A stretch of 64,000 nt of DNA. Origin: Terriglobia bacterium. Lineage in GTDB: Bacteria > Acidobacteriota > Terriglobia > Acidiferrales > UBA7541. Made by a program: the position numbers and the translations under genes. Below the pieces are notes generated by a model that made no database searches, was not told where the DNA came from, and worked only from the letters and a program-made list of their open reading frames with translations. Position 1 is the stretch's first letter; the number at the start of each line of letters is the position of its first letter. Location: positions 1 to 64,000 of the forward strand of contig JAIQGG010000004.1 in assembly GCA_020072785.1 (NCBI GenBank). Reading direction: 5' to 3'. This document shows, piece by piece, positions 49,396 to 58,375 of the stretch.

Positions 49396-50370
49396 ATGCC
49401 ACGCCAGCCGCAGCCCGCGCCTTTTGACGGCGCTCTCGTGGTGGACAAGCCGCGCGGGAAGACCTCGCACGACGTCGTGGACGCGGTGCGCCGCCTGGCG
49501 GGCTTCCGGCAGATCGGGCATCTGGGCACGCTGGATCCGCTGGCCACCGGCGTGCTCGTGCTGCTGCTGGGGCGCGCCACGCGCCTGGTGCAGTTCTACA
49601 CCGGGCGGCGCAAGCGCTACGCCACCGCCTTCCGCTTCGGCTTCGCCACGGATACCTACGACGCCGACGGCGAAGCGCAGGGGCCGGACGCTGCGCCGCA
49701 GCTGGATGCCGCGCTCCTCGAAAAATTGGCCGCGGAGCGGGTCGGGCGCTTTGAACAGATGCCGCCGCCGTTCTCCGCGAAGAAGATCCACGGGCGGCCG
49801 GCGTACGAGCTGGCACGCCTGAAACAGCCGGTGGAGCTGAAAGCCGTGGCCGTCGAAGTGTTCGAATACAAACTCCTGGGCATCGAAGGCAGCGTGGCGC
49901 GTTTCGAAGTCGAGTGCTCTTCGGGTGCCTACATCCGCTCGCTGGCGCACGAAATGGGGCAGCAGCTGGGTTGCGGCGCGCATTTAGCGGAGATCACGCG
50001 CACGGCCGTGGGCGAATTTTCGCTCGAGCAGGCCATCGGGCTCGAGGAGCTGGCTGCGGCGGCGCAGGCCGGGCGGCTGGCGGAGTTGGTGATTCCCCTG
50101 GAGGGCCTGCTGCCCAATTTTCCGCGCGCGAACGTGCTGCCGATGGTCGAACGGCGGGTGCGGCACGGCGCGCGCTTCAATGTCTCCCTCGCGCAAATTC
50201 AGCCCGGGCGCGTCGAGCTGCCGCCCGGCGCCACCGCGCAGCTCGATGCCGGCGAACCCAAACCGCCGCGGCTGCGCGTCTTCGGCCAGGAAAACAAGCT
50301 CCTGGCCATTGCGGAAGCGGTGGTGCCGCGCACCTACCAGCCCATCGTGGTCTTCGATCCGCTTCCGTAA
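49396..50370 (+). CDS. truB: tRNA pseudouridine(55) synthase
   Basis: 324 residues. TruB makes pseudouridine 55 in the T loop. The catalytic Asp47 is in GHLGTLDPLATGVL. KPRGKTSHDVV at the start, the RYATAFRFGFATDTYDADG segment and C-terminal PUA-like domain are typical. It is the last gene of the rimP operon and converges with the secretin gene; the short gap between them (50371-50471) has only a weak AAAAAG/TTTTT dyad. Confidence 0.95.
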   Translation: MPRQPQPAPFDGALVVDKPRGKTSHDVVDAVRRLAGFRQIGHLGTLDPLATGVLVLLLGRATRLVQFYTGRRKRYATAFRFGFATDTYDADGEAQGPDAAPQLDAALLEKLAAERVGRFEQMPPPFSAKKIHGRPAYELARLKQPVELKAVAVEVFEYKLLGIEGSVARFEVECSSGAYIRSLAHEMGQQLGCGAHLAEITRTAVGEFSLEQAIGLEELAAAAQAGRLAELVIPLEGLLPNFPRANVLPMVERRVRHGARFNVSLAQIQPGRVELPPGATAQLDAGEPKPPRLRVFGQENKLLAIAEAVVPRTYQPIVVFDPLP

Positions 50371-50471: not shown

Positions 50472-53438
50472 TTACTGGTCGACAGGCGGAGCCGGGGTGG
50501 CTCCGGAAGCGCCGCCGCCGCGGCCGGCGTAGAAGGTGCGCGAGCGTTTGTGCGGGAGGCGGAGGTGGTGCGGAGTGACGAGGATAAGCATCTCGGTGTC
50601 GCGGGGCTGCTTTTCGCGGGCTCCCGCGAGGTAGCCCGCACCGGGCACGCTGGCGAAGCCCGGCAAGCCGCTGAGCGCGCGGGTCTCTTCTTTGTCGAGC
50701 AGGCCGCCGATTAGCGTCGCTTCGTTGTCGCGCACGCGGATGGTCTGGCTGATGGTGCGGTTGGAAATAATCGGGATGCCGTTGACGCTCTGTCCGGAGA
50801 GCGAACGGATTTCGAATTCCAGCTGCAGCGTAACTTCGTCGTTGGGATGCAGAGTCGGCGTGGCTTTCACCTTCACGCCCAGATCCACGTATTCCGAAGC
50901 GGGGTAGGGCTGCTGCAGAGCGCCGCTGGCGGCGTTGGCCCCCAGGCTGACGGGATCGAAAATGACGGACACCTGGTTGGCCGTGGCTTCGGTGAAGGCC
51001 GCGTCCGGACGGGCGTCGCCGTTGAGGTCGACGGCCACCACGGCGCTGGGGCCCGCGGCGGTGGGCAGGGCAAAGCGCGGCGCGAAGAGGCCCGCGCCCA
51101 GGCCGAGATGCACGCTGATCGTGCTGATGCCCTGGTTGGTCACCAGGAGATCACCTGTGCCGTCGCTGTTGAAGTCGGCGATGGCCACGCCGGAAGGAGC
51201 GGCGCCGGTGGCCAGCGGGGAGCTGGTCGCCGCTTGAAAGGTGGCGTCGCCGTTGTTCAGGAGCACAGTAACAGAATTGTCCGCCTGGTTGACGATGGCC
51301 AGATCCGGGCGGGCATCGCCGTTGAGGTCGCCGGCGGCGAGGGCCACGGGTGTCGTGCCCACGGCGATGGGCGAGCCGGGCGCGGCGTGGAAGGTGCCGT
51401 CGCCGTTGCCCAGCAGGATGGAGAGGTTGTTGGTCGTGCGGTTGACCACGGCGAGATCCGGTTTGCCGTCGCCGTTGAAATCCGCGGCGGCCAGCGCCAC
51501 GGGGCCCTGCTCGCCGCCGGGAAGAAGAAACGGCGAGCCGGGCGCGGCGGTGAAAGCGCCCAGGGCGTTGCCAAGAAAAACGGAGATGGTGTTGTCGCTG
51601 AGATTGCTCACCGCGAAATCGGGTTTTCCGTCGCCGTTGAAGTCGCCGATGACGATGGCGCTCGGGCCGTTGCCGGCGGCGATGGGTGAGGCCGCGGCGG
51701 GAGTGAACGTGCCGTCGCCCTTGCCGAGGAGCAGGGTCACGTTGTTGGACGACTCGTTGGCGACGAGCAGGTCGGGGAGGAAGTCGCCATTGAGGTCGCC
51801 GGCGGCGATGGCCGAAGCTCCGGTCTGATCGGCTCCGAGCACGATGGGTGAACCGGTCGCGGCGGTGAAGTTTCCGCTGCCGCGGTTGAGCAGGATGGTC
51901 AGGGAGCTGTCGTCATGATTGACTACCGCGAGATCGTGCTGCCCGTCGGCGTTGAAGTCGGCAGCCACTAGGGCGAGCGGGTTGTTGCCGGTGCTGAAAT
52001 CGCTGCGCGGCAGGATATTGGCGCCGAGCGCGGGAGTGAAGGAGGGCGTGCCCAGGCTGCCGGAGAGCAGCGCCAGCGTGACCGGAAAGCGGTCGCCCAC
52101 GAAGAAGCTGGCGGGCTTGCCGTCTTGCGCGCGCAGCAGGATGCGCCGGCCGCTGCGCACCAGCGAAAGCGCTTGCGAAAATTGCGCCGCGGCGCCGGGG
52201 AGCGTCGCCAGCAACGTGCTCTGGCCCCCGCCGAAGGCGATGAGCGGCGGCAACAGGGCGCTGGCGCCGAGCTGCCCGGTACTGACCAGCGAGGCAATCT
52301 GGCTCGCGGAGCCCCCCAGCACGCCCTGCGCGCCGAAGATGCGCTGCAGGATGCCGATCAGCGTGGGCAGGTCGGCGGCCTGCTCGAGTGCGGTGATGTC
52401 ACTGGGGCTGAGCGCGAAGACCCGCGTCGAGGAGGGTGGCGTGATGCCCAGCTTCAGGGCTTCGCTGCGGTTCACTTCCAGCAATTCGATCTCCAGTAGC
52501 AACTCGCCGCGGGCCTGTTCCAGCTCGCGGATCAGCTCGCCGGCAAGGGCCACGACGCGCGGGGTATCCCGGATGGTGATGGTGCGGCCGGCGGTGTCCA
52601 CCTGGCTGCGCGTGGCTCCGGCGATCTCGCGCAGCATGCGTTGCAGCTCGATCATCTCCTCGGGGGAGGCGGAGGCGGGCAGAAGGAAGGTCTGCTCAAT
52701 CAGTTGGTCGTACTCGCGGCGCTTGGCCGGCGTGTCGGCGGTGACGAAAAAAGTGTCCGCGGCCATGGGGCGGAGGAACGTCCCGGTCTGCGCGGCGAGG
52801 ATGCCCGCGACGGTGGGGAAGTCCACGTTGCTGAGGCGCAGACGGATGGTGCGCGAAGGCAGCTCGGGATCGAAGAGCGCCTTGAGGCCGAAGGCCTGCG
52901 CGATCTGCTCGTAGGCGTTCTGCGTGTCGCCCCGCAGATCGAAGGTGTGCTTGCCGGAGCGCGGTTGCAGCCGGGCGAGTCCGGCGAAGCGTGGCTCGGC
53001 GGGCGCGGGGGTTTGCGCCTGCGGCGGAGGAGCCATGGCTGCGATCTGGGCGAGGCGTTCGGTGACGTTGCTGTTGCCGGGATCGAGGCGCAGCGCCGCG
53101 CGCAGCTCCGCCACGGCTCCGTGCACATTTCCACCCCGTGCCAGACGCTCTGCGTTGTCCACGCGCTGGTGGACCAGGCTCGAGCGCAGCAGGGCGCCGC
53201 GCTCGAACGCCGGGGCGTCCTGCGGGTCCAGCCGTGCGGCGGCGTCGTAGGCGGCCAGCGCCTCGCCGAAGCGCCCGGCGGCCTCGGCGCGTTTGCCGTC
53301 GTCCAGCAGGCGCTGCGCGCGCCGCGGATCGGGCCGCGGGACATCCTGCACCGCGCTCTGCTGCGCCCCTGCCGGGACCGGGCAGCACAGCGCCAGCAGG
53401 AGCAGTAGTGCGGCGGCGCGCTGGGAGAGACAAAGCAT
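50472..53438 (-). CDS. Secretin with an FG-GAP/VCBS beta-propeller inserted in the secretin domain
   Basis: 988 residues from ATG 53438. Signal peptide (AAALLLLLALCCPVPAGAQQ), two TPRs (about 35-115), a secretin N0/STN-like domain and N-domain repeats (HTFDLRGDTQNAYEQIAQ to about 300), then the first half of the secretin domain up to FFVGDRFPVTL (about 450). At about 480-830 seven FG-GAP repeats with D-(F/L)-N-x-D-(G/x) Ca-binding loops follow at 52-residue spacing. The secretin domain resumes with EYVDLGVKVKATPTL and GLLDKEETR to about 960. It has no neighbouring type II secretion genes. Confidence 0.88.
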   Translation of the reverse strand: MLCLSQRAAALLLLLALCCPVPAGAQQSAVQDVPRPDPRRAQRLLDDGKRAEAAGRFGEALAAYDAAARLDPQDAPAFERGALLRSSLVHQRVDNAERLARGGNVHGAVAELRAALRLDPGNSNVTERLAQIAAMAPPPQAQTPAPAEPRFAGLARLQPRSGKHTFDLRGDTQNAYEQIAQAFGLKALFDPELPSRTIRLRLSNVDFPTVAGILAAQTGTFLRPMAADTFFVTADTPAKRREYDQLIEQTFLLPASASPEEMIELQRMLREIAGATRSQVDTAGRTITIRDTPRVVALAGELIRELEQARGELLLEIELLEVNRSEALKLGITPPSSTRVFALSPSDITALEQAADLPTLIGILQRIFGAQGVLGGSASQIASLVSTGQLGASALLPPLIAFGGGQSTLLATLPGAAAQFSQALSLVRSGRRILLRAQDGKPASFFVGDRFPVTLALLSGSLGTPSFTPALGANILPRSDFSTGNNPLALVAADFNADGQHDLAVVNHDDSSLTILLNRGSGNFTAATGSPIVLGADQTGASAIAAGDLNGDFLPDLLVANESSNNVTLLLGKGDGTFTPAAASPIAAGNGPSAIVIGDFNGDGKPDFAVSNLSDNTISVFLGNALGAFTAAPGSPFLLPGGEQGPVALAAADFNGDGKPDLAVVNRTTNNLSILLGNGDGTFHAAPGSPIAVGTTPVALAAGDLNGDARPDLAIVNQADNSVTVLLNNGDATFQAATSSPLATGAAPSGVAIADFNSDGTGDLLVTNQGISTISVHLGLGAGLFAPRFALPTAAGPSAVVAVDLNGDARPDAAFTEATANQVSVIFDPVSLGANAASGALQQPYPASEYVDLGVKVKATPTLHPNDEVTLQLEFEIRSLSGQSVNGIPIISNRTISQTIRVRDNEATLIGGLLDKEETRALSGLPGFASVPGAGYLAGAREKQPRDTEMLILVTPHHLRLPHKRSRTFYAGRGGGASGATPAPPVDQ

Positions 53439-53549: not shown

Positions 53550-54821
53550 GTGTTCTCGGCCTTTCTCATTGCCTTGCGCGAGGGTGTGGAAGCGGCGCTC
53601 GTCGTGGGCATCGTTCTCGTCTATCTGGCGCGCACGGGGCGCGCCCAGCTGTCGCGTTACGTGTGGTCCGGCGTGGGCGCGGCGGCGGCGCTGAGCCTGG
53701 GCGTGGCTGCGGCGCTGGAGCGCTGGCAGGTCAGCCAGGACGGCTTCGAAGGGCTGCTGCTCCTGGTGGCCGCGTTTTTCGTGGTGACCATGATCGTGTG
53801 GATGAACCGCGTGGCCCGGCACCTGAAAAAGCATATCGAAACGCGCGTAGAGTCCTATGCCGGGCGCGCGGGCCGCGCCGCCGGCTTTGGCCTGTTCCTG
53901 TTCGTGTTTCTGATGGTGCTGCGCGAGGGTGCGGAGATGGCGCTGATCCTGCGCGCCGTGGAGCTTTCGACCGAGGGCCTGCAGATCTGGATCGGGACGA
54001 TTGCGGGGATCGCCGCGGCCGTGGCGGTGGGACTGTTTTTCTTTCAGGGCACGTTGCGTGTGGCGCTGCCGCGTTTTTTTGCGGCCACCAGCCTGATCCT
54101 GATGCTCGTGGCCTTTCAACTTGGCCTAACCGGGCTGCACGAGCTGAGCGAGGCGCGCTGGCTGCCCTCGAGCAAGGGCGAGATGGCGCTGATCGGTCCG
54201 ATTGTGCGCAACGACCTCTTTTTCTTTGTGTTCATTCTCGGGGCAGCGGCGCTGCTGGTCTTCCGCGAGTGGACGTCCCTGGCGCACGCGGCGGCGGCTG
54301 CGCAACCCGCGCCGGCCGCCAGTGACGCGGAGCGCCGGCGCAGCGAATGGGAGCGCCGGCGGCAGCGGCGCTGGATGATGGCCGCGGCGGCGGCCTGCCT
54401 GGCGGTGATTTTGGCGTTGACGGCCGACTTCGTCTATGCGCAGGTGCATGCGGCGCCGCCGGCGGCGCGCGGCATCGAAGCGCGCAACGGGGAAGTGCGC
54501 GTCCCCGTCGCCGAGGTGAACGACGGAAACCTGCATCTTTTCACCGTGAAAATAGGCGGCAGCGCGCTGCGCTTTCTGGTAATCCGCAAGCCCAACGGCT
54601 GGGGCACGGCGCTGGATGCCTGCCGCATCTGCGGCGCCGCGGGCTACCGCCAGGACGGGCAGAACGTCATCTGCCGGCACTGCGCTTCGGCGATCTATAT
54701 CCCGTCCATCGGCGATCAGGGCGGCTGCAATCCCATTGGCGTGCCCGCGCGCGTGGACGGCGCGGAGCTGGTCTTGAACGTCTCCGCGTTGACGGAAGCA
54801 TTTCGCGAGGTTCCGCAGTAG
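53550..54821 (+). CDS. FTR1-family iron permease fused to a DUF2318 domain
   Basis: 423 residues. The N-terminal half is an FTR1/EfeU-type seven-helix permease with both iron-binding R-E-G-x-E motifs (LREGVEAAL, LREGAEMAL). The C-terminal domain after a further helix (CLAVILALTADFVYAQV) is DUF2318-like, with C-R-I-C-G-A-A-G-Y and C-R-H-C then GGCNPIGV. In Campylobacter and relatives these are separate genes of an Ftr1/P19 iron system. GTG 53550 follows GGAGACCCG. It is the first gene of a four- to five-gene operon. Confidence 0.88.
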   Translation: MFSAFLIALREGVEAALVVGIVLVYLARTGRAQLSRYVWSGVGAAAALSLGVAAALERWQVSQDGFEGLLLLVAAFFVVTMIVWMNRVARHLKKHIETRVESYAGRAGRAAGFGLFLFVFLMVLREGAEMALILRAVELSTEGLQIWIGTIAGIAAAVAVGLFFFQGTLRVALPRFFAATSLILMLVAFQLGLTGLHELSEARWLPSSKGEMALIGPIVRNDLFFFVFILGAAALLVFREWTSLAHAAAAAQPAPAASDAERRRSEWERRRQRRWMMAAAAACLAVILALTADFVYAQVHAAPPAARGIEARNGEVRVPVAEVNDGNLHLFTVKIGGSALRFLVIRKPNGWGTALDACRICGAAGYRQDGQNVICRHCASAIYIPSIGDQGGCNPIGVPARVDGAELVLNVSALTEAFREVPQ

Positions 54822-56151: not shown

Positions 56152-57292
56152 TGTTCTGGCGGATTCTCAAGCGGCTGTTGCAGGCCAATCGCGGGCGCCT
56201 GGTGACGGTATTGCTGGCGCTCGGCGCGGGCGCCGCGGTCACCGCCGCGCTGCTCAACCTGCAGGTGGACGCCGAAGAGCGGCTGACGCGCGAGTTCCGT
56301 TCCTTCGGCGCCAACGTGCTGGTCGCGCCGCGCGCCGCCGAAACGGGCGGCGGCGTGACGATGGACGAGGCCGTGCTGCAGCGCGTGCCGCAGCAGTTCC
56401 AGGGCGCGCCGGTGGCCGCCGTGCCGTTTCTCTATCTGGTGGCCGACGTATCCGATTCCGACGCCACGCTGCGCAAGGTCGTACCCGCGGTGGTGGCCGG
56501 GACGCAGCTCGAGGGCCTGGCGCGCGTCGGCCCGGGGTGGAAGATCGAGCCGGCGTCGCCGCTGGCGCTGGCGGGAGGGCACTGCCTGGTAGGTGCGCGG
56601 GTGGCGGCCCAATTCGCCGCGCGGCCGGGCGAAAAGCTGCTGCTGCACCTGGGCGGCCGGGAAGAGACCTGTGTGGTCAGCGGGATCGTCTCCGCGGGGG
56701 GTACGGAAGATAACCAGGTCTTTGTGGATTTGGCGGCGGCGCAGCGCCTGGCGGCGCAGCCGGACCGCCTCAGCCTGATCCAGGTGAGCGTGGCCGGCAC
56801 GCCGCAAGGCATCGAGAGCTTTCTGGGGCAGCTGGCCATCGCGTTGCCGGGGGCCAGCGTGCGCGGGGTGCGGCAGTTCAGCGACGCCGAAGCGCGGCTC
56901 TACCAACGCATCCGCGGGCTGCTGGTGGCCACGGTGGCGCTCATCCTGGTCCTGACCGGGCTGTGCGTGATGGCGGCGATGACCAACGCGGCGATGGAGC
57001 GCACGCACGACGTCGGCTTGATGAAGGCGCTGGGCGGGCCGGTGGAGCGCGTGCTGCGCCTGTTCCTGACCGAAGCGGCGATCCTCGGCGTGGTCGGAGG
57101 GATTCTCGGTGCGGCGGCGGGTATTGCGCTGTCCGTCTGGCTGGGCCAGGCGGTGTTTGGCGTGGCGGCGCGGCCGCGGCTGATTGTGTATCCTGTGAGC
57201 GTGGCCCTCACGATCCTTGTCGCCGTGGCAGGAGCGTTTCCGCTGCGGCATCTGGCGAGCGTGAAGCCGGCCGCCATTTTCCGGGGAAATTC

Positions 57293-57296
<4 letters not shown>
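56148..57296 (+). CDS. FtsX-like ABC permease of the iron-transport operon, subunit 2
   Basis: 382 residues. Same plan as the preceding gene, clearly a diverged paralogue (shared start LLALGAGAAVTAALLNLQ and EFRSFGANVLV). It contains four membrane helices, three at the C-terminus. Overlap with the upstream stop and with the downstream start (ATGA) indicates tight coupling, so the pair probably forms a heterodimer. Confidence 0.85.

Positions 57297-58375
<1,079 letters not shown>

Follow-up and report, generated by a model that had tools for sequence, protein, structure and literature searches.

Among the protein channels in the bacterial outer membrane, secretins are the largest, and they are opened and sealed by Gate 1. 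By published definition, the borders of Gate 1, also called the central gate, are hinge glycines (PMC10550240, PMC8563730). The central gate of XcpD comprises residues 466-496 between two pivot glycines (PMC10550240), and the hinges of pIV are Gly267 and Gly297, on which Gate 1 pivots up and outwards (PMC8563730). The Gate 1 tip is short in T2SS structures, where 11-15 residues are disordered (PMC10499894), and a disulfide lock at the gate tip blocked secretion in the XcpD study (PMC10550240). We analyzed a stretch of 64,000 nucleotides from a Terriglobia bacterium (the window), in which one minus-strand gene, with its ATG start at 53438 and its stop at 50472, encodes a secretin interrupted at this gate. 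A preliminary description had the gene running without a break from signal peptide to C terminus, and the single unbroken ORF of 988 aa confirms this. The features of the gene and its conserved neighbors are as follows.

50472..53438, minus strand: whole gene, TPR-secretin with a gate-inserted FG-GAP propeller, 988 aa
53364..53438, minus strand: signal peptide, residues 1-25, sequence MLCLSQRAAALLLLLALCCPVPAGAQ, boundary drawn by eye
53040..53327, minus strand: TPR region, residues 38-133, from Pfam TPR, model helices, and TPR structures among the fold matches
52509..52961, minus strand: periplasmic N0 and N1/Secretin_N, residues 160-310, from Pfam Secretin_N and fold matches to EscC and PilQ N0
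52068..52502, minus strand: secretin C-module part 1, residues 313-457, from alignments with GspD and insert-free orthologs
52095..52097, minus strand: Gate 1 hinge glycine 1, G448, aligned to the glycine in the NVGQDVPV segment of E. coli GspD
50931..52022, minus strand: seven-bladed FG-GAP propeller, residues 473-836, from blade count, AlphaFold2, and the integrin alpha head match
50877..50879, minus strand: Gate 1 hinge glycine 2, G854, from the orthologous G488 of locus L109 aligned to XcpD 5wln
50559..50912, minus strand: secretin C-module part 2, residues 843-960, from PF00263 and the GspD and PilQ structures
49396..50370, plus strand: truB, conserved syntenic neighbor, outside the mechanism, from synteny
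53550..54821, plus strand: FTR1-FtrD fusion (iron uptake), conserved divergent neighbor, from synteny

Judged by its sequence and the predicted fold of its N domains, the window protein is a secretin. A Pfam search returned Secretin (PF00263, 3.8e-25) at 88.9 bits, against a gathering score of 27.5, and the best stretch, residues 843-957, covers profile positions 51-166. Part 1 of the C-module (∼313-457) had no Pfam score on its own but could be aligned with solved GspDs and with syntenic orthologs free of the insert, which themselves score as a single Secretin domain. The proposal that both halves are secretin therefore held by Pfam for part 2 and by alignment for part 1. For Secretin_N, the window protein scored below the Pfam cut-off, and an insert-free ortholog scored above it. 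When the N-terminal part was modeled separately, it matched the periplasmic domain of EscC (Z 10.7) and the N0 domain of PilQ (Z 9.9).

Residues 313-457 terminate in the ascending strand of Gate 1, and in alignments with GspD, XcpD, and EPEC GspD, the insert lies between hinge glycines G448 and G854. Solved GspDs align to both flanks, with ASFNVGQDVPVLSG...NTVERKTVGTKLKVTP of E. coli GspD matching ASFFVGDRFPVTLA...ASEYVDLGVKVKATP of the window protein. In the insert-free ortholog L109, the equivalent glycine is G488; its partner in the alignment is chain residue 462 of XcpD 5wln, which corresponds to G496 by a 34-residue offset (chain start at precursor residue 35) deduced from chain length. 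The two hinges enclose 26 residues in E. coli GspD and 39-40 in the insert-free orthologs; the window protein has 405 residues there, and the other propeller carriers have 383-695. Both glycines are present in all 76 orthologs (counted by pattern; the single row missed reads NLG, with Gly there too). Because the insert is bounded by the two hinge glycines, the propeller replaces the Gate 1 tip. It had been placed in a loop between conserved strands; this was correct, and the loop is more exactly Gate 1. A location in the apical cap gate was ruled out by the hinge-glycine alignment with XcpD numbering.

The insert itself matches FG-GAP_3 in seven stretches (4.9e-67). Its calcium loops begin at residues 494, 548, 599, 653, 704, 755, and 804, giving a spacing of 54, 51, 54, 51, 51, and 49 residues, or 147-162 bases with a mean of 155; the seven repeats first described are thus real, whereas the steady 157-base spacing ascribed to them is not. 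AlphaFold2, run on a lone subunit with an alignment of eight sequences (the window protein and seven relatives), returned pLDDT values of mostly 78-95 for the propeller (∼478-826), mostly 60-90 for the TPR and N domains, and below 50 for the secretin C-module. Structure prediction therefore supports the propeller as a separate folded domain and places the C-module with low confidence. The best structural match to residues 473-836 was the integrin alpha6 head (Z 34.6, 2.8 Å over 328 residues), behind which many integrin alpha subunits were tied and other seven-bladed propellers scored equally high; with the full model, Foldseek returned mainly propellers among the matches listed. In each of the 71 other complete inserts at the Gate 1 site, exactly seven blades were counted, ruling out a blade number that varies as in ordinary FG-GAP repeats. 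From the model and these matches, we are confident that the window protein is predicted to carry one closed, integrin-head-like seven-bladed propeller, as its seven repeats had been taken to indicate.

All seven blades of the window protein have a canonical DxNxDxxxD calcium loop, and the portrayal of its propeller as calcium-binding fits to that extent. It does not extend to the family. Strict loops occur at each blade in 25-54 of the 71 other propellers, most of which keep 2-5; since all seven are retained in only three, binding of calcium is not what the family has in common. A calcium-dependent gate as the family function was accordingly unsupported, with strict loops incomplete in 68 of 71. 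Several genomes have longer inserts of 546-676 residues, the greater length arising because Ig-like domains are nested in the propeller: He_PIG lies between blades 3 and 4 in G012, G021, and G024, and Big_2 lies between blades 1 and 2 in G010. Additional length is found at the same places in G013-G015, G018, and G040. At four loci (L144, L133, L135, and L147), a He_PIG or Big_2 domain sits in a propeller that sits in a secretin gate, a triple nesting.

A search at the order level gave a match in 93 of 95 genomes. Reading of the loci placed the insertion in 72 proteins of one Terriglobia family, including that of the window. The alignments establish a secretin subunit in which the Gate 1 tip is replaced by a complete integrin-alpha-type seven-bladed propeller, an arrangement conserved across this one family. 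A short stretch of 20-21 residues occupies the site in two members of the family (G047 and G048) and in three genomes from sister families (G004-G006); G003 likewise lacks the insert. The insert-free orthologs share the truB-secretin-FTR1 locus, in one genus within the family (two members) and in the sister families. Homologs in another family of the same class have a short loop and different neighbors. Outside the family, a gate propeller was found in none of 20 class-level homologs or 7 further loci checked, and the FG-GAP matches of other phyla included no secretin; the genome-wide scan for gate propellers used exact short peptides. In a phylum-wide search, homologs outside the order were insert-free or of a cohesin type among the open frames inspected, which were a subset. 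The named public relatives are MAGs labeled Terriglobia or Acidobacteria gp2.

Core trees built without the insert place the carriers in a tight cluster and G047/G048 inside the family; a tree uniting all carriers as one clade was not rejected (AU p 0.317). Because G047/G048 nest inside the family on core trees, the sequences suggest a single gain and a single loss of the propeller. These two members form a genus with genomes of 2.6-2.8 Mb (loci L109 5688-7541 and L110 5283-7142) that lacks both the propeller and an adjacent FTR1-ABC operon, a double absence that is possibly a secondary loss. Core and insert distances were correlated (Mantel r 0.80, exceeded in 0 of 2000 permutations), and dN/dS was 0.05-0.25 for the propeller and 0.04-0.27 for the secretin core. 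By these sequence measures, the propeller is under purifying selection and is inherited together with the core. FG-GAP proteins are present elsewhere in the window genome, and a few orthologs look frameshifted in draft assemblies, as might be expected of a neutral relic or an assembly artifact. We find this hardly credible against 72 genomes, a constant blade number, purifying selection, and orthologs with an empty site; an artifact or one-genome oddity was ruled out, since 72 orthologs carry the insert. In four draft genomes (L088, L118, L120, and L123), the secretin gene is split over two or three frames, probably through assembly errors.

Carriers and several noncarriers have the same flanking genes: infB-rbfA-truB to one side, and FTR1 with an FtsX-type ABC operon to the other. 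FTR1-FtrD (53550-54821, plus strand) is followed by two FtsX-type permeases and an ATPase, forming an iron-uptake operon divergent to the secretin across the order. The ATPase (56963-58375, plus strand) is fused to a DtxR-type metal-binding/dimerization domain (PF02742, 5.4e-29), as if, on its sequence, the transporter ATPase carried its own iron sensor. One reading of this pairing, which includes the insert-free orthologs and leaves 111 bases between the secretin and FTR1 start codons, is that the secretin is the outer-membrane port of the adjacent FTR1-ABC iron uptake system, with the propeller as its capture head. We regard this as highly improbable: G052 and G056 have the propeller without an adjacent FTR1, G047 and G048 have the secretin without one, and inspection by eye revealed no obvious Fur-like box. 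Synteny with FTR1 also says little because the truB-infB side is conserved to the same degree.

No pilus or secretion gene lies beside the secretin in any lineage inspected, and its conserved neighbors, housekeeping genes and the iron-uptake operon, include no dedicated partner gene. The absence of pilus and T2SS genes noted earlier is thus true of the vicinity but not of the cell. The genome encodes two other secretins, a PilQ beside pilMNOP (contig C2) and a TPR-secretin-cohesin protein (contig C5, locus L159), along with pilB, pilT, pilC, and another GspE/GspF pair at other places (names assigned from family matches and sequence). The other secretins, ATPases, and GspF/PilC platforms are all on contigs other than that of the window gene. 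At L159 (6937-10103), two pseudopilin genes lie downstream of the TPR-secretin with its C-terminal cohesin domain. The insert-free homolog is directly adjoined by a related TPR-secretin in G183 and G204. T2SSF domains (PF00482) number at least four in each of 12 genomes tested, propeller-less ones included, which equals about two platform proteins. No motor can thus be assigned to the orphan secretin of the window. A link between propeller loss in G047/G048 and platform loss was not seen: both genomes still encode two GspF/PilC proteins, as the rest do.

Such a setting could belong to a repurposed secretin that no longer exports and instead anchors an adhesin-like propeller in the outer membrane. 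The locus is an orphan in every genome examined, as are the insert-free outgroup homologs, and the other secretins of the cell serve T4P and a T2SS-like system. We nevertheless think this quite unlikely, given that N0, N1, the strands of both the inner and the outer barrel, and the two gate hinges have all been retained and that the core evolves at a dN/dS of 0.04-0.27. Conservation of the N domains, barrel strands, and hinges, together with the low core dN/dS, suggests a working ring.

We tentatively favor, at somewhat less than an even chance, a surface crown of ligand-binding heads carried on the gate tips and controlling the gate. Subunits of the window protein would form the usual 12-15-fold outer-membrane ring, and Gate 1 would turn on its glycine hinges, moving upward and outward as in the open T3SS secretin and taking the propellers through the pore one at a time. 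A propeller of the integrin-head type is ∼50 Å. Passage of a single propeller would be feasible because the open secretin pore is 62-65 Å (PMC10499894, PMC8563730). The propellers would end up as a ligand-binding crown around the pore mouth, serving as a head for adhesion or sensing and replacing or regulating Gate 1 closure; through the crown, ligand binding and pore opening may be mechanically coupled. At 36 kDa each, 12-15 propellers occupy 518-647 nm³, compared with 199-302 nm³ for the barrel, taken as a cylinder 65-80 Å wide and 60 Å high. That they are too bulky for the secretin lumen favors the surface crown and makes an extra gate inside the pore, as originally proposed, sterically unlikely. 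The nested Ig domains would also fit surface exposure because He_PIG and Big_2 are typical of cell-surface proteins, and we counted the propeller pI of 4.05 for an outside position. Against the crown, we know of no secretin precedent for a 36-kDa folded domain crossing the outer membrane. Every relative tested has retained the gate arms and hinges, which is compatible with a periplasmic position too, and both the lack of a dedicated partner gene adjoining the secretin and the C-module pLDDT below 50 count against it.

Alternatively, the propellers could lie below the gate in the vestibule, where they would block the resting pore and recognize a substrate or pseudopilus before export. Closed Gate 1 tips sit midchannel, and propellers that folded in the periplasm before the ring is inserted would stay on that side with no crossing needed. 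A vestibule of ∼500-785 nm³ (assumed cylinders 80-100 Å wide and 100 Å high) would hold 12-15 propellers only if wide. The packing would be tight, the N0-N1 and TPR rings need the same space, and the nested Ig domains of some lineages would bring a further 170-270 residues per subunit into the vestibule; we consider this arrangement unlikely, though by no means negligible. A further step would be to see the surface crown as an outer-membrane machine of a new class, with 12-15 integrin-like propellers on a moving gate that mechanically couple ligand binding to gating; we still hold this proposal to be doubtful.

A 36-kDa folded propeller at the gate, apparently since the origin of the family, shows that the gate is able to bear a large rigid domain. 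The gate tips known so far are short flexible loops, unlike those of this soil Acidobacteria family, which offers a system for asking about the opening of gates, the side on which the gate tips are located, and the ability of secretins to display binding heads. Insert-free orthologs at the same locus provide natural controls. In the papers searched, the gate-propeller arrangement was previously undescribed, and a literature search covering a minority of subscription papers and preprints found no relevant paper on FG-GAP in a secretin.

With GspD/XcpD/PulD (PF00263), the window protein shares the C-module strands, the two Gate 1 hinge glycines, N0, and Secretin_N. It differs in its N-terminal TPR fusion, the absence of a gsp operon, and the replacement of the Gate 1 tip by 405 residues that include the propeller. 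In NCBIfam, it scored 66.8 bits against the T2SS GspD equivalog TIGR02517 (cut-off 351.35) and 53.7 against the T4P PilQ subfamily TIGR02515 (cut-off 284.35), and it was far under the cut-offs of other named secretin types too. Nor does it have the context of PilQ, since pilMNOP adjoins a different secretin gene, the one on contig C2. T4P PilQ and Tad RcpA share the secretin fold with Gate 1 and Gate 2, but their Gate 1 has no inserted domain, and their TPR is a separate lipoprotein pilotin (PilF, TadD) rather than a fused region. The TPR-secretin-cohesin paralog shares TPR, Secretin_N, and Secretin (∼28-30% identity in the N-terminal part); it has instead an ordinary gate loop, a C-terminal cohesin, and two pseudopilin genes following. 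Vibrio-type GspD with a cap (top) gate is likewise a secretin in which extra sequence modifies lumen closure. Its ∼20 extra residues are in the apical, membrane-side region (PMC10329019), outside Gate 1 and with no folded domain, whereas the window protein carries its large insert away from that region, between the central-gate hinges. The integrin alpha propeller has in common with the insert its seven FG-GAP blades and closed fold; at 11-17% identity among the matches listed, the insert comes with no integrin leg domains and resides inside a channel gate.
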